In this document: one piece after another, positions 16,666 through 53,085 of the stretch | How positions within the stretch are numbered: position 1 is the first letter of the stretch | How the letters are laid out: each line of letters opens with the position of its first letter | Origin: Pseudomonadota bacterium | GTDB taxonomy: Bacteria; Myxococcota_A; UBA796; GCA-2862545 | Assembly (NCBI GenBank): GCA_947505245.1 | Contig: CANNIZ010000021.1 | Span: 1 to 64,000, forward strand | Length of the DNA stretch: 64,000 bases | Direction of reading: 5' to 3' | Position numbers and translations under genes: made by a program | Notes under the pieces: generated by a model | What the model was told of the DNA's origin: nothing | What the model saw: only the letters and a program-made list of their open reading frames with translations | Databases searched by the model: none

Positions 16666-17746
16666 GGACCCACCCCCGCCAGCCAAGCTATCCTGTCCCG
16701 GCGGAGGGTCGTTGCACCTGCTGCTCTGGGTGCTGGTCGCGTGCACCGCCGGTCATGTCGCGCCACAAGAAGCTCTCGCCGGGCGCGTGTCCGAGCCGTT
16801 CGCGTCCGCACCCGCAGGCGCCATTTCGGCCGCCGCCCTCGAGACCGTGCGCACCTACGCCGCTGAGCGAAGCACGCGCGGCCTGCTGGTGCTGGTCCAC
16901 GGGCAGCTCGCCTACGAGTGGTACGCCGCCGGCACCGACGCCACGACGCTCCTCGACGGCCGTTCGATGACCAAGACCATCACCGCGCTGGCGTTCGGGA
17001 TCCTTCAGGGCGAGCAGCGGATCCCACCCGTCGATCGCCCGATCACCGAGACGGTGTTCCCCGAGCTCGCGCGCGACGCCACCCGCAGCCTGATCACCTG
17101 GCGCGACCTGCTCGAGATGGCCTCGGGCCTCGGCAACGACGCGGACCAGACCCCGCTCGAAGCACCCTTGGAACGCACCGCATTGTCGATCCCGGGCCTT
17201 CACACGCCGGGCTTCGCGTTCGACGACAACGACGCGAACACCGAGCTCCTCGGGCTCGCCGTCGAACGTGCGAGCGGACAGCGTCTGGCGACCGTCCTCT
17301 CTGACCGCCTGTGGCGCCCCCTGGGCAACGGCGAAGCCTCGATCGCCCTCGATGGCCGTGGGCGCACCGCCTACGCCTATTGCTGCCTGTTGGCCACCAC
17401 CCGCGACTGGGCCCGCGTCGGCCAGCTGCTCCTCGATGGCGGTCGCGTCGGCACCACCCAGGTCGTACCGCGCGACTTCGTGATCCGCATGACCCTTCCC
17501 TCGCGCAACAACCCCGACTACGGCTGGCACCTGTGGCGCGCCGATGACGGGCCTGGGAGCGAGCGCGCCAAGGGCCGCAGCGAACCCCTGCTCGAAAAGG
17601 CGATGTTCTGGCTCGATGGCGGTGGGGCCCAGCGGATCTACGTCCTCCCTGCGTCCGGGCTCGTCGTCGTGCGGATGGGGGACGAACCGCCCGACTGGGA
17701 CGATGCGTTCGTCGTAAACACGCTGATCCGCGGAACGCGCCCATGA
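16664..17746 (+). CDS. Class C beta-lactamase-like serine hydrolase, probable lipoprotein
   Basis: 360 residues if started at ATG. A hydrophobic run ending LLLWVLVAC (Cys27) looks like a lipobox. GRSMTKTITAL is the SxxK motif (Ser101, Lys104); AYCCLLATTRDWARVGQLLL holds the second catalytic Tyr (Tyr239) in the YCC form common in the NylB/esterase branch; DGGGAQRIYVLPASGLVVV is the third element. It is likely an esterase or amidase acting outside the cytoplasm, rather than an antibiotic-resistance enzyme. A TTG at 16712 behind GGAGGG is an alternative start, which would leave almost no n-region. Overlaps the next gene by ATGA. Confidence 0.85.
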   Translation: MDPPPPAKLSCPGGGSLHLLLWVLVACTAGHVAPQEALAGRVSEPFASAPAGAISAAALETVRTYAAERSTRGLLVLVHGQLAYEWYAAGTDATTLLDGRSMTKTITALAFGILQGEQRIPPVDRPITETVFPELARDATRSLITWRDLLEMASGLGNDADQTPLEAPLERTALSIPGLHTPGFAFDDNDANTELLGLAVERASGQRLATVLSDRLWRPLGNGEASIALDGRGRTAYAYCCLLATTRDWARVGQLLLDGGRVGTTQVVPRDFVIRMTLPSRNNPDYGWHLWRADDGPGSERAKGRSEPLLEKAMFWLDGGGAQRIYVLPASGLVVVRMGDEPPDWDDAFVVNTLIRGTRP

Positions 17747-18369
17747 TGAGGCTCACGCTCCGCTCCGGCAAGGACGGCCGCTTCCTCGCGCGCATCGTCG
17801 AGTCCGGCAGCGCGCATCCGTTCGTCCTCGACTTCGGCGACCGCCGGATCATCGACGACGTCCAGCAGCGCCTGCACAAGGGCTTCACGATGTGGCGGTT
17901 CGGCCAGCTCGTACAAACCGCCCCACAGGACCCCGAGCTGCTGTTCCTGCTCGCCGAGTTCTACTGCGGTGAGGGCCTGCTGGTCGCGTTCGAAGAGCCC
18001 ACCTGGCCCGGTCGCGAGTCGACGCTCGACGAGCGGATCCCGGTGCCCGCGGTCGACCGCGCGTTGTTCGGTGCGGCGCCTGACACGCTGCGCACCATCG
18101 TCCCCGATCGCGACGACGCGACCGAGTTCACCAAGGTTCCAACCGAAGACCGCACCGAGGAGCGATCCGATAGCACCGAGCTCGTCGACCTCGAGGAGAT
18201 GACCGACCTCGGAACGTACCTCGAGGACTCCACCGATCCCGCCATGGCCGTGCCGATCCCCGCAGCCTACCGCCGGGTCAGCGCCGTCGGCGACGCCGTC
18301 GAGGATGCGCAGACCGAGTTCGTCGAAGTCGAAGATGCCGGGACCGAGATCGCCCCGAAGCCGAAATAG
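17743..18369 (+). CDS. Unknown protein with acidic low-complexity C-terminal half
   Basis: 208 residues. Residues 1-90 form a compact basic domain (LRSGKDGRFLARIVES, FGDRRIIDDVQQRLHKGF, LFLLAEFYCGEGLLVAFEEPTW). The rest is rich in Asp, Glu and Thr and probably unfolded. No signal peptide or membrane segment is visible, so it is probably cytoplasmic. It is coupled to the hydrolase by ATGA and separated by 1 bp from the next start, so the three genes form an operon. No family recognised. Confidence 0.75.
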   Translation: MMRLTLRSGKDGRFLARIVESGSAHPFVLDFGDRRIIDDVQQRLHKGFTMWRFGQLVQTAPQDPELLFLLAEFYCGEGLLVAFEEPTWPGRESTLDERIPVPAVDRALFGAAPDTLRTIVPDRDDATEFTKVPTEDRTEERSDSTELVDLEEMTDLGTYLEDSTDPAMAVPIPAAYRRVSAVGDAVEDAQTEFVEVEDAGTEIAPKPK

Positions 18370-18370
18370 C

Positions 18371-20677
18371 GTGACGTCCCGCTCTCGATCGGCCCTCCTG
18401 TTGCCCCTCGCCGCCTTGGTGATCGCGGGCCTGTGGCTTGCCTGGCCTCGCGCGCAGGCTCCGAAATCGCGCCCGAACGTCCTTTTCGTCACGTTCGACG
18501 CCACCCGGGCCGATCACCTGGGCTTCCTCGGCGGCCCCGCCGGCGCCACCCCCATGCTCGACGCGATGGCCGCGCGCGGCACCGCTTTCGAGGAGGCGAT
18601 CACGGTCCAGCCGCTCACGCTGCCGTCGCACACGTCGCTGATGACGGGCCTGTACCCCGATCACCACGGGGTGCGGAACAACGGGACCTACGTCGTCCCC
18701 GCCGAGGTCCACACGCTCGCCGAGCGGCTCAACGAACTCGGCTACGCCACCCACGCCGTCGTGTCGTCGTTCGTGCTCGACTCACGCTTCGGCCTCGACC
18801 AGGGGTTTGACTCCTACGACGACGATCTCACCGGGTCGGCCACCCAGAAGCTGTTCATGTTCGAGGAGGTCACCGCCGACCTCACCGCCGAGCGCGCGGT
18901 CCGCTGGTTCCGCTCCCGCCCCACCGATCGCCCGTTCTTCCTGTGGGTCCACTTCTTCGATCCCCACGCCGACTACACGCCGCCGCCCGACGTCGCGGCC
19001 CGGTTCCCCGGCGATCCGTACACCGCGGAGATCGCGTTCGCCGACCGCGAGTTCGGCCGGATCATCGCGGAGCTCGACGACGCCAAGGTCCTCGACAACA
19101 CGCTGTTCGTGTTCTCCGCCGATCACGGCGAGGCGCTCGGCGAACACGGCGAGTCCACCCACGGGATCTTCGTGTACGACGCCACCGCGCGCGTCCCGAT
19201 GTTGCTCGCCGGCCCGGGCGTCCCCGTCGGCGGTCGCGTCCGGGACGTCGTGCGCACGGTCGACGTCGTCCCCACCGTGCTCGATCTGCTCGGCCTGCCC
19301 GCAGACACCGCCCTCGACGGCCGCTCGCTCGCCGCGATCTGGCGCGGCCCCGACGAGCCTCGCACCGCCTACGTCGAGTCCTTTGCTCCGCGGCTGAACT
19401 TCGGCTGGTCCGAGCTGCGCTCGCTTCGGACCGATCAGCTCAAGGTCATCGACGCGCCCCGGCCCGAGGTGTTCGACCTCGACCGCGATCACTCGGAGCT
19501 CGACAACCGTTGGGCCAGTCGCCGCGACGAGCCCGCGATCGCCAGCCTGTTCGCCGACCTCGCCACAAGGCGCGCCGCCGATCCGTTCGCCAAGGGCGCC
19601 CACACGCCCACCACCATGGACGCGTCCACCCGCGAGCAGCTCGCAGCGCTCGGCTACGTCTGGGAGGCCGGCTCCGAAGGGGAAGGCCCGCGATCCGATC
19701 CGAAGGATCGCCTCGTGTACTGGACGCGGTTCCAGGCCGGCCAGGATCTGATCCGCCAGGAGAAGTACGAAGACGCGATCGCCTCGTTGCGCGCGCTCCT
19801 CCTGGAAGACGCCGACAACGTCACCGCGATGGGCTCCCTCGCCCTCGCCCTCGCCAAGGCCGACCGCCCCGACGAGGCCCTCGCCACCTACGCGAGCATG
19901 ATCGCCAAGGACGCCGCCCGCGACACGCCCTACCTCGCGTCGATCCGCCTGCTGCGCGACAAGAAGCGCTTCCCCGAGGCCGAGGTCATCGCGCGGAAGC
20001 TCGTCGCCGCCCAGCCCGAGAACACCGACGCCGCCACGGCCCTCGGCGACGTGCTCACCGAAGCCGGCTCGTTCGACGGCGCCGCCGAGTCCTACCGCCG
20101 CGCGCTCGCCCTCGATCCCGACGCGATGTCCGCCGCCGCCGGGCTCGGCAACTGCCTCAACCGCTCGGGCAAGCGGTCCGAGGCCCGCGCGATCCTCACC
20201 GCCGCCCACGAGCGCGATCCCGCCGATCACGGCGTCACCTACAACCTTGCCGTCGTCAGCGATCAAGACGGCGACCCGACCGCCGCGCTCGCCCTGTACG
20301 CCCGTGCCACCGAGCTCGACCCCGACCACGCGATGTCGTGGAACAACTACGGCACGGTGCTCGAGCGCCTCGGCCAGCACGCCGACGCCGTCGCCTCGAT
20401 CGAGCGCGCCCACAAGATTGACCCCCGCTGCTCCGAGGCCTCCTACAACCTCGGCGTCATGCGGCTCGCCGACGGCAAGGTCGACGAGGCCATCGCGATC
20501 TGGAGGGACGCTGCGGCCACCTGGCCCGACGCCTGGCTCGCCATCGCGCACGCCGAGCTCAACCGCGGCGATCGGGCTGCGGCTCTGGACGCGCTCGTTC
20601 ACGCTCGGGCGGGCGGGGCGAGTGCGCTTTCGACCGAAGACCCGTTAAACGGGCTCGTCGATCCCACGCGGCGCTAG
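18371..20677 (+). CDS. Sulfatase-fold (alkaline phosphatase superfamily) protein with C-terminal TPR repeats
   Basis: 768 residues. An N-terminal membrane segment (about 8-26) anchors it. The superfamily core follows: VLFVTFDATRADHLG (metal ligand Asp43), PLTLPSHTSLMTG and FSADHGEALGEHGESTHG (Asp251, His252). The nucleophile position is Thr83 in TLPSH instead of the Cys or Ser of C/S-x-P-S-R, so formylglycine cannot form; a phosphate- or phosphonate-ester hydrolase or transferase is more likely. From about residue 455 at least six TPR units follow (for example EKYEDAIASLRALLLEDADN). The GTG lies one base after the previous stop. It is the last gene of the operon. Confidence 0.88.
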   Translation: MTSRSRSALLLPLAALVIAGLWLAWPRAQAPKSRPNVLFVTFDATRADHLGFLGGPAGATPMLDAMAARGTAFEEAITVQPLTLPSHTSLMTGLYPDHHGVRNNGTYVVPAEVHTLAERLNELGYATHAVVSSFVLDSRFGLDQGFDSYDDDLTGSATQKLFMFEEVTADLTAERAVRWFRSRPTDRPFFLWVHFFDPHADYTPPPDVAARFPGDPYTAEIAFADREFGRIIAELDDAKVLDNTLFVFSADHGEALGEHGESTHGIFVYDATARVPMLLAGPGVPVGGRVRDVVRTVDVVPTVLDLLGLPADTALDGRSLAAIWRGPDEPRTAYVESFAPRLNFGWSELRSLRTDQLKVIDAPRPEVFDLDRDHSELDNRWASRRDEPAIASLFADLATRRAADPFAKGAHTPTTMDASTREQLAALGYVWEAGSEGEGPRSDPKDRLVYWTRFQAGQDLIRQEKYEDAIASLRALLLEDADNVTAMGSLALALAKADRPDEALATYASMIAKDAARDTPYLASIRLLRDKKRFPEAEVIARKLVAAQPENTDAATALGDVLTEAGSFDGAAESYRRALALDPDAMSAAAGLGNCLNRSGKRSEARAILTAAHERDPADHGVTYNLAVVSDQDGDPTAALALYARATELDPDHAMSWNNYGTVLERLGQHADAVASIERAHKIDPRCSEASYNLGVMRLADGKVDEAIAIWRDAAATWPDAWLAIAHAELNRGDRAAALDALVHARAGGASALSTEDPLNGLVDPTRR

Positions 20678-20723
20678 TCGCCTGCTCAGTACATCGGCTA
20701 CAGTGGCTCAAGTTGGAGGGCAA

Positions 20724-23428
<2,705 letters not shown>

Positions 23429-23432
<4 letters not shown>

Positions 23433-24517
23433 ATCCTGAACTTAGACGTAGCAGCGTCCGTAAACCGGCGTGCGATCACGTTCGGCATGCTGGTGGCCGT
23501 TCGAATTACGCCTCGGGAGCCATCCTGTGCCAGAACCTTTAACAGGTATCGGGCAGTTGCCCCATCAGCCCCCTCAGGCCGAGCGAGGTCGGCAGGCCGC
23601 AGCAAACGTCTAAAGGCAACGCTCTGCCAACGAGGCAGCACGAGGGCACAAGCGATGTCGTCCGGCACCTTCGCGCCGAACAGCGCTACGGCCAAAGACA
23701 GGCCCGCAGAAAGGGCTGACCGAGTGCGAGAGTTGCGCACCCGGTCTATTAGTAGGTATGGATCTGCAAGACGCACCAATTCACGGAAATCTAGGATGTT
23801 TCCGAGGGGCCGAAATCCGTGGCGCACAAGGTTGATCGCCGCGATAACAAGCGCATCCTCGGGCGAGGGAAAACGCAATCCCGGGAACGCAGGCTTCGAG
23901 CGCGCAAAGAGACCGGCTGCGTCCAAACGCATTTCGCGTACCAGACTTAGCGGGCCCACGAGTCTCCAATGTAGGTCTACGTCCAGGGTTAGCGACGGTA
24001 AAAGGTCCTTGAGAAAGGAAGCCTCGCACGCTCCCTGTCCGGTCTGCATGTGGCCAGGTTCGAATCCTAGGTCGAGTAGGACCCGTTGCGCTGCGTCGCG
24101 CTCAGAAGGCAGCACCAAGAGGTCCAAATCTCCGAATGGCCGTTCATGGGGATGGCGATATACCCCGTGCGCGAGGTGGAAACCCTTAAGCGCGACGCAC
24201 GCAATCCCTTCGCGGGCAAGGGCCTCTCCGATGGCGCGTGTCGCCTGTGACTTTAGATCGTTCGCATATGCGAGAGCCATCGCCCGCGCTCTAAGTTCGT
24301 GAACCCACCACTGCGGAGCGTCGGCTGAGGACGCCCGCGCGTGGAGCTCACCAAGAACCCTGTTCTTGGCGGCCAGCACGAGCACGCCCTCCCCACCCTT
24401 GGATTCATTCCATACGAATGGGCCACCAAGTAGGAGAGACAGTAGAGAGCGAGCTTCACCGTCTTCGCCCCGACGGACGCGACGGTCCACCCAGTCACAG
24501 AACCCCGGATCGCTCAC
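23429..24517 (-). CDS. Lasso-cluster nucleotidyltransferase-family protein (N)
   Basis: 362 residues of the nucleotidyltransferase family found in paeninodin-type lasso clusters. CVALKGFHLAHGVY (Lys111, Gly112) precedes RPFGDLDLLV, whose Asp130-x-Asp132 is the metal-binding pair; LTLDVDLHWRL supplies a further acidic residue. It may add a nucleotide to, or otherwise tailor, the lasso peptide; this is inferred from context. The GTG start overlaps the B2 stop (GTGA). Its stop overlaps that of the convergent beta-helix gene. It is the last gene of the cluster. Confidence 0.85.
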
Positions 24518-24906
24518 TGCTGTGGCACACTGAATCGCACCGGGCTTGGTTCGCCAACAACAGCGACTCCACCGATCTCAAGCCATGCGTGCGCCGAGAA
24601 CCCGGCAGTGGCAGTGGCAGCGTGACCAACGCACAACCGAGCATCGACACCTCGAACAGCAAGCACATTATGGGCGGCGACTGCGCGGACGAGGCAATTT
24701 GACCCGTGAACAACTCGGGCCCAACGCGAAACGGTACGACCAATCAAGCGCGCCAAGCGCTCATCCTCAGAAGTTACTGCGCAAACACGGGCCGACATCA
24801 TCCGCGCCACCTCGTCGTTCCCTACCCGTATGGACCGTCGCGCTTTGCGAAGTGCCAGGATCACCTCCGCCGTTAGGGCGACGGCCTCAAGGGTCTCACG
24901 CGTCAT
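24514..24906 (-). CDS. Lasso peptide leader peptidase B2 (transglutaminase-like)
   Basis: 130 residues, the normal size of a stand-alone B2 protein. Cys71 in GSNCLVRAVAAHNVLAVRG and His106 in FSAHAWLEIGG are the catalytic pair of the McjB-C/Transglut_core3 fold, with Glu110 nearby. B2 removes the leader from the precursor once B1 has bound it. The ATG giving MTRETL overlaps the end of B1 by 11 bp; a TTG 12 bp upstream is a weaker alternative. The next gene overlaps by GTGA. Confidence 0.93.
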   Translation of the reverse strand: MTRETLEAVALTAEVILALRKARRSIRVGNDEVARMMSARVCAVTSEDERLARLIGRTVSRWARVVHGSNCLVRAVAAHNVLAVRGVDARLCVGHAATATAGFSAHAWLEIGGVAVVGEPSPVRFSVPQQ

Positions 24907-25189
24907 CGCGGTTCTCAACCAAGCAATGAAATGAGAGTTCTTGGAGGACTGCCGCTAAGTCTCGTTCGGCACGTTCCTGGCTTACGTCGTACTCGGATAT
25001 CAAAACGGCAACGAGTTCGGCAAAGGACCTCTCTTCCTGAAGGAGTTGCCACACCCGTACGCCAACTGCGTTCAGAGCGAAGTACTCGCCTGTATCGAGC
25101 AATAGCACCACCCCTTCGTCGCGCACCGCGCTATGCGCGTGTCGACGGTTGGCACGAATACGATTCTTTGGGCCAAGAGGATCGTTCAT
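24896..25189 (-). CDS. Lasso peptide leader-recognition protein B1 (PqqD-like RRE)
   Basis: 97 residues with the PqqD/RiPP recognition element fold: EGVVLLLDTGEYFALNAVGVRVWQLL (about 25-50), then SFAELVAVLISEYDVSQERAERDLAAVLQEL. B1 binds the leader helix/strand and presents it to B2. The ATG giving MNDPLGPK begins 4 bp after the exporter stop; no Shine-Dalgarno is evident, so reinitiation is likely. The separate B1 and B2 place this in the split-B class of lasso clusters. Confidence 0.93.
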   Translation of the reverse strand: MNDPLGPKNRIRANRRHAHSAVRDEGVVLLLDTGEYFALNAVGVRVWQLLQEERSFAELVAVLISEYDVSQERAERDLAAVLQELSFHCLVENRDDA

Positions 25190-25193
25190 ACGT

Positions 25194-26828
25194 CTATTGT
25201 ACCCGATCGCCATCAACGTGGCGACCCAACCACACGACATGGTCTGCCGCAGCGAGTATCGCCGGCGAGTGGGCCACAACCATCAGGCGCCTAGTGGACT
25301 TGAGTTCGGAAAGTATCCCGACGAGCATTTCTACGCCGGCGGGGTCGAGGTTCGTCTCGGGTTCATCTAGCATCAAGATGGGCCGATCGGCCGCGAACGC
25401 CCTGGCCAAGCAGAGGCGCTGACGCTGCCCCGACGAAAGGACGTCGAGCGGAGCCGCCAGCGGATCTCCAAACCTCGTACGTAATGCTAGACCCAGACCA
25501 ACACGTTCGAGCCATGATCGGAGCACATCATCCGAAATCTGGACGGCGTATACGCGCATCGCATCGCCGACAGTGCCGCCCACCGGAAGGTGTGATCTCT
25601 GAGGAACGAAGGCCAAAGCGCGCCGCCAGGCGCAAATGTCCACGTCGGTGAGCCATGAACCTCCGATGCGCACCCTACCAATGGACGGATCGCAGATTCG
25701 AAGGATCAGCCGTAATACCGTACTCTTACCTGATCCGTTAGGACCTGCGAGGGCGAGAAACGCCTCGGGCCCCCACACAAAGGACAAGCGGTCGATCGCC
25801 CTGCCTGACCTGGAATAATCGAACGTAACGTCGTCAAACACGACATCCCCGCTCAGATTTGGCACACCAGTTGCCGCAGAAGTCCAGCCAGGGTCTGGTG
25901 GCGCCTCCATCATTGAGAGGAACGTAGTCAGGTCGACCAAGCCTGAACGAGCCCGCACGCCCCCGTGTGCCAGTCCAACGACGGCCGGAACCAGACTTGC
26001 AAAGACAAACATTTCGGCCGCTGCAGACCACGTAGCATCGCGGCCAACGACGTACAGCCACATCATGGCTCCGGCCGCGGCGGCTAAAGCGACAGGGAGA
26101 TACCCTCCTATGGCGCCTACGGCCGAAGACCGTTGCCGCATCCGACTCCACCGCAAGGCGCTTGCCACGGTCGCATCTACGTGCTGGCGCGCCGCTCCTC
26201 CGGCGACAATCTCAAGATGGCCGTCCGTAATCAGTCCAAGGGCCGAATAGAAACTCTGGTCCTCGTCCTGCGCGAGTGCCAGCCTGATTTGGTGCGCGCG
26301 TCCAAGTGCCGCGTATGCAGTCGCGGTGACAATGCACATGAGCACGATCCACGGCACCACCTTGAGCGGCATTCGTGACATGACAAGTGGGCCAAACGTG
26401 GCAATCGCAAGGCCATTGGAAATCAATGTTGGGTACACATCCACCAACAGTTCGCGCGAGGCAAGCAAGGCACGAAAGAACCATGCCTGCGCCGAATCCG
26501 ATGGTCCGACTGCGAGCGCAGAAGTCGAGCACACGTATTCAGCCGCGCGTCTTGTGAACGCCACCTGCACTCGCGTCGAAGCGCCTGTACGTACGACTCC
26601 TGCAATTGCGCGCAACAAGAGGCCTGCCGCCGAGGCCACCAACAGCGCATGCATTCGGCCCCAGTCCACCAAGAGGCCCGCCAGCGCGACCATCGCAAGT
26701 TGGGACCACTGAAGCACGACGAGCAGCCCAAGAATCACGATGGTACCTTCGTCAGGCCCCCCAACCACGCTCCGAAGCCACGCGAGTGTGCGCGCTCCGC
26801 GCTGCGCTGTTCCTTCGGCAGAAGTCAT
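25194..26828 (-). CDS. Lasso peptide ABC exporter (fused membrane and ATPase domains, D)
   Basis: 544 residues. Residues 25-300 form an ABC exporter membrane domain with about six helices; the ATPase domain has Walker A GPNGSGKST (362-370), signature LSSGQ (464-468) and Walker B LMLDEP (485-490). As a half-transporter it would work as a dimer to export the mature peptide, usually also giving self-immunity. It starts 2 bp after the kinase stop. No peptidase C39 domain is present, as expected when B2 performs cleavage. Confidence 0.93.
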   Translation of the reverse strand: MTSAEGTAQRGARTLAWLRSVVGGPDEGTIVILGLLVVLQWSQLAMVALAGLLVDWGRMHALLVASAAGLLLRAIAGVVRTGASTRVQVAFTRRAAEYVCSTSALAVGPSDSAQAWFFRALLASRELLVDVYPTLISNGLAIATFGPLVMSRMPLKVVPWIVLMCIVTATAYAALGRAHQIRLALAQDEDQSFYSALGLITDGHLEIVAGGAARQHVDATVASALRWSRMRQRSSAVGAIGGYLPVALAAAAGAMMWLYVVGRDATWSAAAEMFVFASLVPAVVGLAHGGVRARSGLVDLTTFLSMMEAPPDPGWTSAATGVPNLSGDVVFDDVTFDYSRSGRAIDRLSFVWGPEAFLALAGPNGSGKSTVLRLILRICDPSIGRVRIGGSWLTDVDICAWRRALAFVPQRSHLPVGGTVGDAMRVYAVQISDDVLRSWLERVGLGLALRTRFGDPLAAPLDVLSSGQRQRLCLARAFAADRPILMLDEPETNLDPAGVEMLVGILSELKSTRRLMVVAHSPAILAAADHVVWLGRHVDGDRVQ

Positions 26829-26830
26829 TC

Positions 26831-27598
26831 TCAGCGGCCGCCCAATCCGGGCACGCTCGGGTCGCTGGCGATGCGCAGCAATTCCTCAGCGATGTTGGGA
26901 ATGGCTTCTTCGAGTGCCGCCAACCCCGAGGGCTCCCTGAGCATCACTACAGGCACGCGATGGACAATGCCAGCCACTGCTCGTAGCTGCGGCTCCCACG
27001 CAGAGGGGGAAGGATGCCCGCCGAAACGATGCTGGCTGACCTCGACGAGACCGTCCATAGCCGCCAAGGTTTCCATCGAGTGCTCGCCGAATGTACGTTC
27101 ACCGAGAAGAACGATGAGACAAAGAGGGCGCCAACAGCGGCGATTTGACACCAGACGAGTTGCGAGGTTCGCATAGGACACGGCGTTCGGCGTACTCACA
27201 GCTTCGCCCGCCCAAGCCCGTACTACAATCTCCGCGGCAACATCAACGTTTCCACTGTCGTCACACACGATCAGGTCATCCAGTACCGGCGCGAGACCCA
27301 CGCGTCCCAGGAACTGGGCGAGCGTTGATTTCCCCGCCCCACCAATGCCAAGGATACCGATCACACCGACCGGCGTCTGGACTGCTGAACCGTGTAGGCA
27401 GACGACGCCTTGCGTCGCGAGGCCAATGGCCGCCCCCCAGCGCACAAGGTCGCGCGGATCAACATCGCCAGCACCACGCGCCTCAATGCGCGCACTTCTG
27501 CCGTCGTCAAAAAATGACAACGCCGGTACGCCGTCGATCGTCAACGCGAACTGCTCGCGCCCAGTAGCCCTAACGTAGAACGTGATGCGAGAGGTCAC
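26831..27598 (-). CDS. Lasso peptide kinase-like protein (HPr kinase C-terminal fold, K)
   Basis: 255 residues. The HPrK-like core is clear: LHGSAV (68-73), Walker A GIGGAGKST (84-92) and the Asp pair in PVLDDLIV (107-108). In paeninodin clusters the homologue phosphorylates the C-terminal Ser of the precursor. The precursor here has no Ser in its core; Thr14 of the core would be the closest acceptor, or the protein acts differently. The GTG start is 15 bp after the precursor stop. Confidence 0.9.
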   Translation of the reverse strand: MTSRITFYVRATGREQFALTIDGVPALSFFDDGRSARIEARGAGDVDPRDLVRWGAAIGLATQGVVCLHGSAVQTPVGVIGILGIGGAGKSTLAQFLGRVGLAPVLDDLIVCDDSGNVDVAAEIVVRAWAGEAVSTPNAVSYANLATRLVSNRRCWRPLCLIVLLGERTFGEHSMETLAAMDGLVEVSQHRFGGHPSPSAWEPQLRAVAGIVHRVPVVMLREPSGLAALEEAIPNIAEELLRIASDPSVPGLGGR

Positions 27599-27613
27599 AG
27601 AGGCTGTTTCTCG

Positions 27614-27787
27614 CTACGGTTTCGTCTTGAACGGACCGGTATCCGCTTTCGTGCCGGCACCTCCAAGGGTCAGGTCGTCCAATCGCCCGAGGCGAACGAG
27701 CGTTGGGGCTACGTAAGACTTGCGCGCGGAAGCTGCTCCAGCTTCGCTTGTCTCCCCTTTGGCATTCCTGTCAACTCTGTCCGGCAT
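27614..27787 (-). CDS. Lasso peptide precursor (A), 57 residues
   Basis: Leader residues 1-41 contain the class motif YVAPTLVRLGRLDDLT (25-40): a Tyr and Pro for B1 binding and Thr40 at the penultimate leader position. Cleavage after Leu41 gives the core GGAGTKADTGPFKTKP (42-57). Gly1 and Asp8 of the core are correctly placed for an 8-residue isopeptide ring, leaving an 8-residue tail with Phe12 as the only bulky residue and three Lys in total. The start has AGGAGG five bases upstream, the best ribosome site in the cluster; longer forms in this frame lack one. The first 17 bases overlap the end of the cyclase gene. Peptide chemistry is predicted, not shown. Confidence 0.9.
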   Translation of the reverse strand: MPDRVDRNAKGETSEAGAASARKSYVAPTLVRLGRLDDLTLGGAGTKADTGPFKTKP

Positions 27788-29570
27788 CGCGGCCTCCTGT
27801 AGTGTCGATAGCAACGTTGGAATCCAGCTTCGAGAGCCACGATTCGACCGCCACCACGTTTAGGACATGCCTCCCACTATCCCTGCGACTCGGACCTGTC
27901 GTCAACCGCGATCGCGAGGCCAGCGCTCGGGCGCGTTGAAATTCCAGGAAGCGAGTTGCTTGCCAATCCCGCGAGTTGTCGATCTCGTTAGCCAACTCGG
28001 GCGTCGTCGCGTGCAATATCGCGTCGTTGTACGTGTCGAAGAAAGGCTTCCATCGCTGAGCCGTAAGCGTCTTTGGAACGACGTCTCGAGTGGCATGCAC
28101 CAGAATCGGCTTGAATGGCGCGCTTTTTTCCGGCACCGGGCGTTTCGCCGCGTGGGTCCCGTACACCAGTTCAGAGAGCCTGCGATCGAAAAAGGGCGAC
28201 CGTACCTCGAGGCCGTCTCGAAGGAACAGCTGGCCGAACCAAGCTCGCCTCCACTGAGCGCTTGCATCGCTCGTCATTGCCCAACGCACGTCGTCCGTAT
28301 ACGTGGCAAGACCCGTGCTTACCGCCCGACGCCGTACGCTGATCATCCTCGCCTCGGGCCACCACCGAGGCTCCAGTACTTGTCTTGATGCCACCCGCTC
28401 CTTCATCGAGCGCCAAGGTCGCAACAATCCTTGCAGGGACGCCGAGGCCGCCGCCCTCGAAACGCGAAACATAGCGTTCAAAGGGCCGATGGCATGTACG
28501 TCACTTACGTAGGCAACGGCCCTCGGCCAGCGCCCGAACCCGAACTCTCGCAGCACGTCACCAGGGTCGTAAAGGTCGTACACAAGTTCGTCTCCGCCAA
28601 ACCCACCAAACAAGGCCACCGATCCCCGGCTATTGGCAAGCGAGGACCAAGTCGCCAGCGTGGATTCCTGCTGCAATACAAAGGGAGCGTCGAAAAGCGC
28701 CGCATGATCGGCGATATCGGAGGGCAAAATCGGTCCAGGCTCGCAGGCGAACGTGTCACCCAAGAAGGGCAAGGCTTGGCGGGCTATCGCAATCCGTTCA
28801 GACTCGTCGCAGTCGAAACCGTGGAACATCGCCGATATTGTTCGGACCTCCGGGAGAGCTATTCCCGGCTCCCTCGACAGCGCAGCCGCAACGCCCGCGA
28901 TCGCCGTCGAATCAAACCCACCGCTGAGCAGGATGCTGACGGGCCCGCCCAACAGCAGCCGGTCCCTCACTGCATCGAACAACAGCTCCCGAAACCGGGC
29001 GATGAAGTCCGCCTGCGTCTTGATCCCTTCATCCGCCGGGAAGAACGGCCCCCACCACCGGCGCACGTCCACCCGCCCGTTCCGCGCGACCAGCCGACAA
29101 CCGCCCGGCAACCGCTTGATGTTCGCATAGAACGAGGCATCCTCGCGCTGCGGACCGTCCACCAACCAAGCCACCACCGTCAAATCATCAACCTTGCTCC
29201 CCACCCACGGCAGCGCCCGCAGCGCCCGCGTGTCCGTCGAAACCGCGACCTTCCCCTCCTTCGCCGCGTAGTAGATCGGCCGCGACCCGGCAGTATCCGA
29301 CACCGCGATGAGCACCCCCTCCGTCGGGTCCCACACCGCGTACGACACCTCTCCAAGGAGATGCGACGGGAACTCCCTCCCCCACTTCCGGTACGCGGCC
29401 AGCACGAACTCTTCGCGGCCCGCGTCCTCGGCAAGCCCAAGCTCCCGACAGAACGCGCCGTACCGCAGGATCTCGCCCCAGGCCGCCGCGCGTGGCACCG
29501 GCCCGGCGGGCGACACGTCGTCGATGACGACCATGAACCCGCGCCGTTCAGCCAGCTCGAGGACCTTCAC
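27771..29570 (-). CDS. Lasso peptide macrolactam synthetase (asparagine synthetase-like, C)
   Basis: 599 residues. The N-terminal part is a glutaminase-like fold without the catalytic Cys after the initiator Met (GEVSYAVWDPTEGVLIAVSD, RPIYYAAKEG); the synthetase part has the PPi loop SGGFDST (216-222) and FGGFGGDELVYD. It adenylates the core Asp side chain and closes the ring on Gly1. The GTG start overlaps the stop of the upstream lipoprotein (GTGA); an ATG 36 bp later (MVVIDDV) is an alternative. The 5' third has host-like GC, the rest is more AT-rich. Confidence 0.93.
   Translation of the reverse strand: MKVLELAERRGFMVVIDDVSPAGPVPRAAAWGEILRYGAFCRELGLAEDAGREEFVLAAYRKWGREFPSHLLGEVSYAVWDPTEGVLIAVSDTAGSRPIYYAAKEGKVAVSTDTRALRALPWVGSKVDDLTVVAWLVDGPQREDASFYANIKRLPGGCRLVARNGRVDVRRWWGPFFPADEGIKTQADFIARFRELLFDAVRDRLLLGGPVSILLSGGFDSTAIAGVAAALSREPGIALPEVRTISAMFHGFDCDESERIAIARQALPFLGDTFACEPGPILPSDIADHAALFDAPFVLQQESTLATWSSLANSRGSVALFGGFGGDELVYDLYDPGDVLREFGFGRWPRAVAYVSDVHAIGPLNAMFRVSRAAASASLQGLLRPWRSMKERVASRQVLEPRWWPEARMISVRRRAVSTGLATYTDDVRWAMTSDASAQWRRAWFGQLFLRDGLEVRSPFFDRRLSELVYGTHAAKRPVPEKSAPFKPILVHATRDVVPKTLTAQRWKPFFDTYNDAILHATTPELANEIDNSRDWQATRFLEFQRARALASRSRLTTGPSRRDSGRHVLNVVAVESWLSKLDSNVAIDTTGGRDAGQS
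27793..27798 (-). promoter_or_regulatory. Ribosome binding site of the lasso precursor
   Basis: AGGAGG with a 5-base spacer (CCGCG) before ATG. It lies inside the 3' end of the cyclase gene. It fixes the precursor start and should give the precursor a higher translation rate than its coupled neighbours, as needed for a substrate made in excess over its enzymes. Confidence 0.85.
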
Positions 29571-30157
29571 GGGCCGGTGTCACCGTCGATCAGGCCGCCA
29601 TCGAGCCGCCAGATGCCGACCGTGAACGCGCCCGAGGTGGCCCCGTTCGCGCCGGCCACGCCGAGCAGGATCTCTCGATCGGCGAAGCCGATCATCGGCC
29701 CGATCACCTCGGTGTCGCCGGGGTTGTTGTCGTTCGCCTGGTCCATGCCCGCCTCGCATCGGGTGGGCGAGGACACGTTCGGGGGTGTCTCGGCGGACGC
29801 GGGCAGGTTCTCGATCGTGTAGATGCTCACATCGACGCCGTCGGCGGGATCGACCTGAATCACGATGTTGCCCGAACCCTGCTTGTCGATGCCCGGGTAC
29901 AGCACGTGGTTGCCGGTGAAGTTGACGTTCTCGGTCGAGACCCAGCAGTAGACGCCGGAGTCGTCGGCCCAGTCGACGCTGATGATGCTGCCGTCGGCGA
30001 GATCGCCGTCGAACGTCTCGTCGGGGTCGCCGAGCGAGTCCGGCACACCGTCTTCGTTCGTGTCGATCGTCTGGAAGCCGTCGTCGCCGCCGCCGAGATC
30101 GACGCCGCCGCCGTCAGTGCAACCCGCCAAAAACACAGCCAACGCGACGAACCTCAT
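29567..30157 (-). CDS. Secreted lipoprotein, unknown function
   Basis: 196 residues. Lipobox LAVFLAGC puts the acylated Cys at 13; a Gly/Asp-rich stretch and a calcium-type NEDGVPDSLGDPDE follow. The rest looks like a beta-sandwich with two Cys (VYCWVSTENVNF and TRCEAGMD). ATG is preceded by GGAGGAG. It overlaps gluQ (ATGA) upstream and the lasso cyclase (GTGA) downstream, so it sits between housekeeping and biosynthetic genes. A link to the lasso peptide is only positional. Confidence 0.82.
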   Translation of the reverse strand: MRFVALAVFLAGCTDGGGVDLGGGDDGFQTIDTNEDGVPDSLGDPDETFDGDLADGSIISVDWADDSGVYCWVSTENVNFTGNHVLYPGIDKQGSGNIVIQVDPADGVDVSIYTIENLPASAETPPNVSSPTRCEAGMDQANDNNPGDTEVIGPMIGFADREILLGVAGANGATSGAFTVGIWRLDGGLIDGDTGP

Positions 30158-50543: not shown

Positions 50544-51455
50544 CTAAAACGCAGTGGACATCGCAAAGTCGTGCTGACCCCACGGGTCGAACAGCATCTT
50601 TGCATAGGGATGTTTAGGATCGCCGTCCGGAAATTGAATCTCTTCGATGACCTGACCTTCGAGCATGACCAGACCACGATGACACCACTTTCGTGCTTGT
50701 GTCATCTCGTGCGTGACGAGGATGCAGCCTGCTTCCGGTGGCAGGTTGTGGATCAGGTCCTCGAGCACGGACTCCTGGCGATCCGGGTCGAGGCCGCTCG
50801 TGGGCTCGTCGGCGACGACGAGCTTCGGCTGAAGCGCGAACACTCGCGCAAGCGTGACGCGCCGCTGTTCACCGCCTGACATCTCGCGGGGGAGCGCGTA
50901 GAGGCGGTGCCCGAGGCCGAGGCGCTCGAGCATCTTCACCGCCTCCCCTTCCACGTTTGTCGGGTCCCGCTTGCCAAGAATCGTCAGCGACTCGATCACG
51001 TGCTCGAGGGCCGTTTGCTGCGGATCCAGCGCTGACAGCGCGTCCTGCGGCACGTACTGGTATTTGACCCGCTGCGGGCGGCGCTGCATCTCCGACAAGC
51101 CGTCCCAGCGCATTCCTTCCAGGCGAATCTCGCCCTTGGTGGGCTCTTCGAGCCCGAGGACCATGCGCGAAACCGTCGTCTTCCCCGAACCTGACTGACC
51201 GATGAGGGCGAGGACTTCACCGGGCTTGATCGTGAACGTGACGTTGCGCACGGCATGAACATCGCGCTTCGGGCTCCACGGCCACCGACCAGGGATCGTG
51301 AAGCTCTTGTCGACACCGTTGAATTCGACGATCGGCTTGGCCTGGGCCTCGACCGTGCGCGGCGCTGGCGCGTGCAGACGAACGGTCCCCGCCGGCGTGC
51401 GCGCAGGACGCTCCGGAAGCACGTTTCGATTCGCCGAAGCGGGCGTGGCGTTCAT
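50544..51455 (-). CDS. Peptide/nickel-type ABC transporter ATPase (OppF-like)
   Basis: 303 residues. After a 40-residue Pro/Ala-rich extension, the ATPase core has Walker A GQSGSGKTT, Q-loop YQYVPQDALSALDPQQT, signature MSGGEQRR and Walker B LVVADEPTSGLD. The C-terminal oligopeptide region is short and ends LFDPWGQHDFAM. It hydrolyses ATP together with the neighbouring ATPase to drive import. The start overlaps the next gene by ATGA. Confidence 0.92.
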   Translation of the reverse strand: MNATPASANRNVLPERPARTPAGTVRLHAPAPRTVEAQAKPIVEFNGVDKSFTIPGRWPWSPKRDVHAVRNVTFTIKPGEVLALIGQSGSGKTTVSRMVLGLEEPTKGEIRLEGMRWDGLSEMQRRPQRVKYQYVPQDALSALDPQQTALEHVIESLTILGKRDPTNVEGEAVKMLERLGLGHRLYALPREMSGGEQRRVTLARVFALQPKLVVADEPTSGLDPDRQESVLEDLIHNLPPEAGCILVTHEMTQARKWCHRGLVMLEGQVIEEIQFPDGDPKHPYAKMLFDPWGQHDFAMSTAF

Positions 51456-52213
51456 ACGGGTGCGCCTTCCAGGGTGGGCTTGCTTCCGACCGGCACGATC
51501 TTGACGACGACGTCCGCCACGCGATCGACCGTGTCCATGTTGTGGGAGATCAACATCAGGCCCACCCCGTGTTTGCGGGCGACCTCGAGCATGAGCTCCG
51601 TCACGACGCGCCGCAGGACCGGGTCAAGACCCGTCTCGGGCTCGTCAGCGATCATGATCCGAGGCTGCGGGGCGATCGCGATCGCGAGCGCCGCGCGCTG
51701 GGCCATCCCGCCCGAAAGCTCGCGCGGCAGGGCGTACGCAGCCCGGGCGGGCAGCCCGACCTCGTTCAGCACGTCCTTCACAACCTGACCGATGTTCGTC
51801 GCCGGCTTGGTCCGGCGCCCGATCGCGATCTCGAGCTGGCGCCCGATCGTTCGCCCCGGGTTGAGCGCAGACGACGCGGACTGCGGGGAGTACGTAAGGT
51901 ACCCGCCGCGGAGGATGGTCGTGTCCGCGAGCAGGCGCCGCTGGGCCTTCATGCCGTTCCCGCGCACGCCCTCGAACCAGTCGCGGTCGCCCGACCACCC
52001 TGGGAAGCGAAGGGAGCCTCGCACCAGGCCGGGATCGACGTCGAGGACGCCCATCGCTGCACGCGCGGACAGGCTCTTTCCTGACCCCGAGTGACCGATC
52101 ACGGCGGTGACCTTTCCTGCCCGAACGGAGTAGCTCACGCCGTCCACAAGCGTTCGCTCTGCGGTCTTGATGCAGAGGTCCGACAGGTCGAGCAACAGGT
52201 CCGGGTCGCTCAT
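51452..52213 (-). CDS. Peptide/nickel-type ABC transporter ATPase (OppD-like, short)
   Basis: 253 residues, about 70 fewer than ordinary OppD because the C-terminal OppD/OppF extension is missing. Walker A GHSGSGKS, Q-loop LTYSPQSASSALNPGRT, signature LSGGMAQRAAL and Walker B IMIADEPETGLDP are intact. ATGA overlap with the permease before it and the other ATPase after it shows a single operon. Confidence 0.9.
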   Translation of the reverse strand: MSDPDLLLDLSDLCIKTAERTLVDGVSYSVRAGKVTAVIGHSGSGKSLSARAAMGVLDVDPGLVRGSLRFPGWSGDRDWFEGVRGNGMKAQRRLLADTTILRGGYLTYSPQSASSALNPGRTIGRQLEIAIGRRTKPATNIGQVVKDVLNEVGLPARAAYALPRELSGGMAQRAALAIAIAPQPRIMIADEPETGLDPVLRRVVTELMLEVARKHGVGLMLISHNMDTVDRVADVVVKIVPVGSKPTLEGAPV

Positions 52214-53085
52214 CGCGCCCTCGCCGACATGCGAAAGGCCTGCGCCATGAACGCGACCACGAAGACCAACCCCAGGCCCAGGCCCAGCGCGTGGTACATG
52301 GGGACGCCGCCGACCAGCGACGTGTAGCCATCGTACAGCAGCGACGCCCACGAATGAAGGTTGTCGCCATGGGTGAACGACGGCTCGTTCCGTGCGGCCG
52401 CGAGGTAACTCATGGCGATCTCGAGAAACACGACCTGCATCATCACTTCGGCGCCCTGACGCACGAGCACGGAGCGGAGGTTCAACCAGACGATGTGGTA
52501 CACGTAGATGCGAACGGCGTCAAATCCGTGCGCGCGAAGGGCCTCGACGAACCGCGCACCGCCGAGCCGCTCAGCGGTTGCCGCAGCTTCATCCATTGCG
52601 CCTGGGGCTGCGAGCAACGCCCATGCGATTCCGATCGGGTACAACGAACGCCACTCGCGAGGCACCGCCAGGGCGACGACCAGAATGACGACGAGACGCG
52701 GCAACGCCCCGACGAGCTCGGTGAAGACCTGCAACGCGCGGTCGGTCCAGCCGATGTCCGCGCAGCGGGACAACCCGGACAGGGTGGCGAGCGAACTCAC
52801 CAGCAACCCAGCCACCACCGCCGGGAACGTAACGATTCGCGCGCCCTGCAACGCGTATTCGAGGAGCCCGATCCCCATTCCGTCGGTGCCAAACGGCCAC
52901 CGCTGCCAGGGCAGCAAATACGAGGCCGCCATGCGTTCCTTGAACGAGCCGGGTGGCGGGGACAGGTTTTCTGGAGCAATCCAGGAGGCGAGCGCGAGAC
53001 CGCCAAGCAACACGATGCCGGCGATAAGCCAGAGCGTCTTGATCCTTTGCGCGCGTTCGACCGCGCCAACGACTTGTGTGCTCAT
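52210..53085 (-). CDS. Peptide/nickel-type ABC transporter permease (OppC-like)
   Basis: 291 residues with five or six membrane helices after an N-terminal TM segment and a periplasmic loop (PWQRWPFGTDGMG, the OppC-type HxxGTDxxG-like element). The EAA-like coupling loop is RFVEALRAHGFDAVRIYVYHIVWLNL. Pairs with the upstream permease to form the channel. ATGA overlaps at both ends. Confidence 0.9.
   Translation of the reverse strand: MSTQVVGAVERAQRIKTLWLIAGIVLLGGLALASWIAPENLSPPPGSFKERMAASYLLPWQRWPFGTDGMGIGLLEYALQGARIVTFPAVVAGLLVSSLATLSGLSRCADIGWTDRALQVFTELVGALPRLVVILVVALAVPREWRSLYPIGIAWALLAAPGAMDEAAATAERLGGARFVEALRAHGFDAVRIYVYHIVWLNLRSVLVRQGAEVMMQVVFLEIAMSYLAAARNEPSFTHGDNLHSWASLLYDGYTSLVGGVPMYHALGLGLGLVFVVAFMAQAFRMSARAR

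Follow-up and report, generated by a model that had tools for sequence, protein, structure and literature searches.

The 64,000-nucleotide stretch analysed here (hereafter the window), positions 1 to 64,000 of contig CANNIZ010000021.1, carries at 23429-29570 seven co-directional minus-strand open reading frames (ORFs), in the order C-A-K-D-B1-B2-N, which are best explained as a complete, probably functional operon for a modified lasso peptide, probably acquired horizontally by this Myxococcota-type genome. On the evidence of the sequence, a complete set of genes for a split-B lasso peptide was confirmed: all seven ORFs described in an initial annotation of this DNA were recovered at their coordinates and strand (Table 1), along with the motifs quoted there, i.e., SGGFDST at residue 216 of C, GIGGAGKS at residue 84 of K, GPNGSGKST in D, and Cys71/His106 in B2. 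The statement that the cluster has no isopeptidase also held, as the S9-family peptidase profile (PF00326) gave no match on the source contig. The peptide and its lineage are new; the gene set and mechanism are already known from the bsf cluster.

Table 1. Coordinates of the lasso operon, its predicted core and other features of the window
Feature	Coordinates	Strand	Details
C, putative lasso cyclase (asparagine-synthetase-like)	27771..29570	-	599 aa, GTG start
Codon-usage break in C	28919..28924	-	codons 216-217, at SGGFDST
A, lasso precursor	27614..27787	-	57 aa from ATG; NF033521 lasso_leader_L3
Predicted 16-residue core, ring Gly1-Asp8	27614..27664 (incl. stop codon)	-	leader spacing and T(-2) rule
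K, HPr-kinase-like peptide kinase	26831..27598	-	255 aa; BsfK motif and AlphaFold model
D, ABC exporter	25194..26828	-	544 aa, permease-ATPase fusion; ABC_tran PF00005
B1, PqqD/RiPP recognition element (RRE) leader-binding protein	24896..25189	-	97 aa; PqqD PF05402
B2, leader peptidase (transglutaminase-like)	24514..24906	-	130 aa, Cys71/His106; NF033537
N, nucleotidyltransferase-family tailoring enzyme	23429..24517	-	362 aa; PF14907
Segment missing from this junction in relatives	18232..29566		about 11.3 kb
Lipoprotein gene upstream of C	29567-30157		not an operon member
Two more ABC-transporter ORFs matching the D profile	50547-52519	-	outside the operon

Operon and precursor peptide

Adjoining genes of the operon overlap or sit at most 16 nucleotides (nt) apart. 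The start of A lies within the 3' end of C, with AGGAGG immediately upstream of its ATG; K begins 16 nt past A, and the successive junctions of K, D, B1, B2, and N are few-base gaps or overlaps.

The precursor passes its NCBIfam lasso leader model (23.3 bits, cut-off 19). Its leader ends in YVAPTLVRLGRLDDLTL, and Y(-17), P(-14), L(-12), and T(-2) are spaced as in at least 20 homologous precursors, a spacing toward which the precursor search expression was itself biased. Based on this spacing, cleavage is predicted after LTL, before the 16-residue core GGAGTKADTGPFKTKP. The core agrees with the lasso rule (Gly/Ala/Ser/Cys at position 1, Asp/Glu at 7-9) through G1 and D8; it contains Ala3, three Thr (Thr5, Thr9, and Thr14), no Ser, and a C-terminal Pro, and its predicted lasso monoisotopic mass was computed as 1513.789 Da. 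A leader-plus-core regular expression had a single match in the window, at gene A, and none in 130 kb of background DNA. Furthermore, a full-text literature search returned no paper with the core sequence, and no close relatives of the precursor or of C were found in scans of genome contigs.

Regarding the processing enzymes, B2 passes the lasso B2 model NF033537 (60.5 bits, cut-off 33); its Cys71 and His106 align with homologues, and the Cys and HAW motif are conserved in 59 aligned sequences. B1 matches PqqD (61.3 bits, cut-off 23.4) and scores 53.5 bits on the narrower lasso PqqD model NF033536, under the cut-off of 80. D matches ABC_tran with 86.1 bits and resembles CydD/CydC/MsbA-like exporters, and C matches Asn_synthase (PF00733) with 105.8 bits in Pfam.

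Kinase, nucleotidyltransferase, and candidate phosphosites

K was identified by none of the Pfam, NCBIfam, and PDB sequence searches; a PDB match to 'Lipase B' was discarded, its alignment being limited to a P-loop region. However divergent, K carries the complete lasso-kinase motif seen in BsfK (H69, G84, G87, G89, K90, S91, D107, and D108), of which G89, K90, and D107 are invariant in an alignment of 28 homologues. The only strong fold matches of its AlphaFold model (mean predicted local distance difference test score, pLDDT, of 75; N-terminal 40 residues and residues 128-152 poor) are HPr kinase/phosphorylases and phosphoenolpyruvate carboxykinases (PEPCKs), which have one fold in common. 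By motif and by this modelled HprK/PEPCK fold, K is assigned as a predicted lasso peptide kinase of the BsfK/PadeK-like kind. N matches NTP_transf_5 (PF14907) with 120.7 bits; K111, G112, D130, and D132 are invariant in the alignment, and a fold search with its model retrieved nucleotidyltransferases, MenT1 and ANT(2'') among them. As a PF14907-type protein with a catalytic DxD, N is classed as a putative PsmN/BsfN-like tailoring enzyme, set beside PsmN by description.

For comparison, about 60 B2-containing loci from the same phylum were collected and annotated with iterated profiles. A K gene beside the precursor is common among them, often accompanied by N, and in several all of C, A, K, B1, B2, D, and N are present. 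Of the collected loci, L056 has the core GTSGNEVDGSTPADRGNNPGD, whose computed mass of 2015.8416 Da coincides with the value calculated for the BsfA core in the literature (2015.8417; PMC10368454); on this basis, L056 was identified as the bsf cluster of Bradymonas sediminis FA350. The bsf cluster comprises seven genes (A/B1/B2/C/D/K/N), and BsfK, BsfB1, and BsfB2 have been assayed biochemically (PMC10368454). Among the clusters compared, the best BLAST match of the window K is the L056 K, with 27.8% identity. Both clusters share the seven genes, YxxPxL at -17 to -12, a Gly1-Asp8 ring (predicted for the window), and the lack of a C-terminal Ser, whereas bsf has Ile(-2) and Ser3 where the window has T(-2) and Ala3, so that the window precursor falls outside the bsf-type rule (Ile/Val at -2, Ser/Thr at core position 3). 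Moreover, K is placed differently in bsf (C-A-D-B1-K-B2-N), identity is 28-33% where BLAST aligns (K, D, B1, and B2), and neither the C nor the N of L056 was matched to the window by BLAST at E<=1.

Pseudomycoidin (psm, from Bacillus pseudomycoides) resembles the window cluster in having both K and N, and paeninodin (from Paenibacillus dendritiformis) in having a split B, an HPr-kinase-like K, and an ABC exporter (PMC8498205; PMC9266682). In pseudomycoidin, the C-terminal Ser is phosphorylated and hexoses are then added (PMC9266682; PMC8498205); the phosphosite of paeninodin is likewise the C-terminal Ser, and N is not part of its descriptions as consulted (PMC8498205; PMC9266682). The label 'paeninodin-type', given earlier to this gene content, was therefore imprecise, because the seven-gene set is that of bsf and pseudomycoidin too has K and N. 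Within the phylum, the uncharacterised clusters L048, L058, L065, L109, and L110 (family set f15) resemble the window in T(-2), S/T5, D8, K beside the precursor, and absence of a C-terminal Ser, and differ in that they have other gene orders, a C at most 28% identical, and no supported sister relationship. The f15 set is rich in uncharacterised clusters, with lasso B2 matches (E<=0.001) in 52/108 genomes, 39 of them above the curated cut-off. Among other loci, L061 (6611-8263, minus strand) has cyclase and precursor in one ORF, where a YEPPALEYLGELGEVVR leader and a core starting GAASDVYDTASQGC follow the cyclase with no stop, so that either the two genes are naturally fused or translation of the precursor starts at an ATG inside the frame; and L052 (11642-12135, plus strand) has two tandem precursors, AAVGSNNDGNLGQQRS and AARGSLADGGLGLQRSS, with both S5 and a C-terminal Ser.

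The characterised kinases of Firmicutes and Sphingobium require a C-terminal Ser (PMC8498205; PMC9266682), and phosphorylation of the paeninodin and pseudomycoidin type cannot occur in the window peptide because the core has no Ser. On the other hand, BsfK phosphorylates ring Ser3 of BsfA and accepts Thr there as well (PMC10368454). Judged by the predicted core, the site must be a Thr, with Thr5, Thr9, and Thr14 as candidates. Consequently, the phosphorylated product proposed in the initial annotation would require one of these Thr residues instead of a C-terminal Ser, and the alternative offered there, a nucleotide adduct, departs from the characterised homologous case, since N of pseudomycoidin gives hexose.

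In this context, ten related T(-2) clusters whose kinases group in a supported clade have S/T5 in 8 precursors and a C-terminal Ser in 0. When the two L052 precursors ending in Ser and the window are added, and the near-identical L065/L114 are counted once, S/T occurs at position 5 in 10 of 12 precursors (chance about 5e-5, common descent inflating the counts); without the window and near-duplicates, the figure is 7/9 (about 1e-4, ignoring common descent). By comparison, S/T5 is found in 1/6 of the clusters placed with the C-terminal-Ser ones and in 1/7 of the Ile/Val(-2) set, where S/T at position 3 occurs in 5/7. The L058 core, in which Thr5 is the sole hydroxyl residue, points to position 5 as well. 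Nevertheless, the place of the window within the T(-2) kinase clade is unsupported in the tree, and S/T5 may be structural, given that paeninodin also carries Thr5 though its phosphosite is the C-terminal Ser. We regard it as a tentative idea, more doubtful than probable, that the kinases of the window and of the uncharacterised T(-2) clade of the phylum phosphorylate ring Ser/Thr5. Separately, the lasso-type clusters L105 and L107 lack K, and position 5 is Asn in their precursor, YESPRVEDLGNAVEKTK followed by GVIGNVADM(V/P)GTFRTRGHGW; the K-less comparison for this position is thus one lineage with a precursor only.

Origin of the segment

The segment of about 11.3 kb that includes the operon is missing from the corresponding site of two genomes, one of the same genus (L098) and one of the same family (L101). 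The L098 homologues of window 29570-30157 (the lipoprotein gene) and 17734-18231 adjoin, about 10 bp apart, and the same pairing is found in L101. The extra segment holds a sulfatase-tetratricopeptide repeat gene, a beta-helix/DUF1565 gene with MopE motifs, and the lasso operon. GC content at third codon positions (GC3) is 0.57-0.66 in A-K-D-B1-B2-N vs 0.84-0.90 in genes upstream of C, and a search of 57 related genomes, 20 of which belong to the same family or genus, gave no B2 above cut-off. In a plasmid search, C had only distant asparagine-synthase-like matches, and K had none.

Foreign-like GC3, the lack of B2 in the 57 related genomes, and the absence of the segment in two relatives together suggest that the operon was probably acquired horizontally; insertion of the segment fits best, the alternative being a deletion in both relatives. 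The earlier interpretation of a complete split-B cluster with a new core stands, although both this acquisition and the codon break in C had been overlooked. Membership of the lipoprotein gene in the operon, suggested by the 4-nt overlap of its stop with the GTG start of C, was rejected, as its homologues occupy the same position beside the GluQRS gene in relatives that lack lasso genes.

Proposed pathway and alternative readings

By homology, each enzymatic step can be provisionally assigned. B1 would bind the YxxPxL leader of A, and K, aided by B1, would phosphorylate a core hydroxyl of the linear precursor, the modified residue being a Thr, with a weakly supported preference for Thr5. B2 would then cleave after ...LTL, and C would activate Asp8 and close the ring on Gly1 with the tail threaded through it; finally, N may decorate the phosphate with a nucleotide or a hexose, and D would export the product.

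Several observations weigh against this reading. The best NCBIfam match of C is the lasso cyclase NF033535, with 144.7 bits against a cut-off of 525; C is at most 28% identical to lasso cyclases of the phylum (BLAST), and both C and K sit on long branches of the trees with no supported sister. In B2, HAW is not followed by an evident catalytic Asp, but the homologues do not conserve that position either. Furthermore, C contains a break in codon usage, with GC3 falling from 0.88 to 0.67 within the gene (change-point log-likelihood ratio, LLR, 15.9; 1000 permutations, p<=0.001) and, operon-wide, from 0.89 to 0.64 at C codon 217 (LLR 56.7). The 5' third slightly favors the asparagine synthases of relatives (71 bits vs 62 bits for lasso cyclases), and beyond it lasso cyclases are the sole matches. 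It is possible that recombination at the conserved SGGFDST motif made C a mosaic; an assembly join is the less likely cause of the break. Indeed, that a host asparagine-synthetase-like 5' part was misjoined to a foreign lasso cluster at SGGxDS appears quite improbable: the position of the break, precisely at the SGGFDST codons, and the 139 contigs of the source assembly would agree with an artefact, but the frame is open through the break, full-length lasso cyclases (L114, for instance, over residues 47-582) align with both parts, the far end of the cluster meets its neighbouring gene in a neat 4-nt convergent overlap, and a misjoin requires an extended stretch of identical sequence on both sides, something that a protein motif rarely provides.

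A modified product could also be questioned, in that the peptide may be unmodified or otherwise modified, its phosphosite lost, with K and N being relics or acting on another substrate. We consider this unlikely, albeit less so than a misjoined C. The absence of Ser from a core whose counterparts in Firmicutes and Sphingobium need it at the C-terminus (PMC8498205; PMC9266682), and the divergence of K, at most about 28-32% identical to its homologues (BLAST), speak for such a loss. However, every catalytic residue of K is retained, its frame is open with codon usage like the rest of the operon, the K of L058 adjoins a core with Thr5 as its only hydroxyl residue, and BsfK shows that a ring Ser or Thr can be used by a kinase of the same family (PMC10368454). 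A different product altogether, i.e., another ribosomally synthesised and post-translationally modified peptide (RiPP) or an amide merely made with lasso-type enzymes, is very improbable; C is indeed under the lasso-cyclase cut-off and kin to asparagine-synthetase-like enzymes in general, but the lasso leader signature is above cut-off, G1 and D8 are canonical, and B1 and B2 are of lasso type.

In brief, the seven-gene operon extends the lasso peptides with both K and N by one uncharacterised peptide and its divergent enzymes, and its insertion site and codon usage make it a clear example of the probable acquisition of such an operon. With three Thr and no Ser in the core, the site choice of the kinase is directly testable. 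If Thr5 were the site, it would represent a third kind of lasso phosphosite, beside the C-terminal Ser and ring residue 3, and N would decorate the ring instead of the tail. Moreover, across the compared clusters the choice among C-terminal Ser, residue 3, and residue 5 seems to track kinase lineage, which would provide a prediction for many sequenced clusters.

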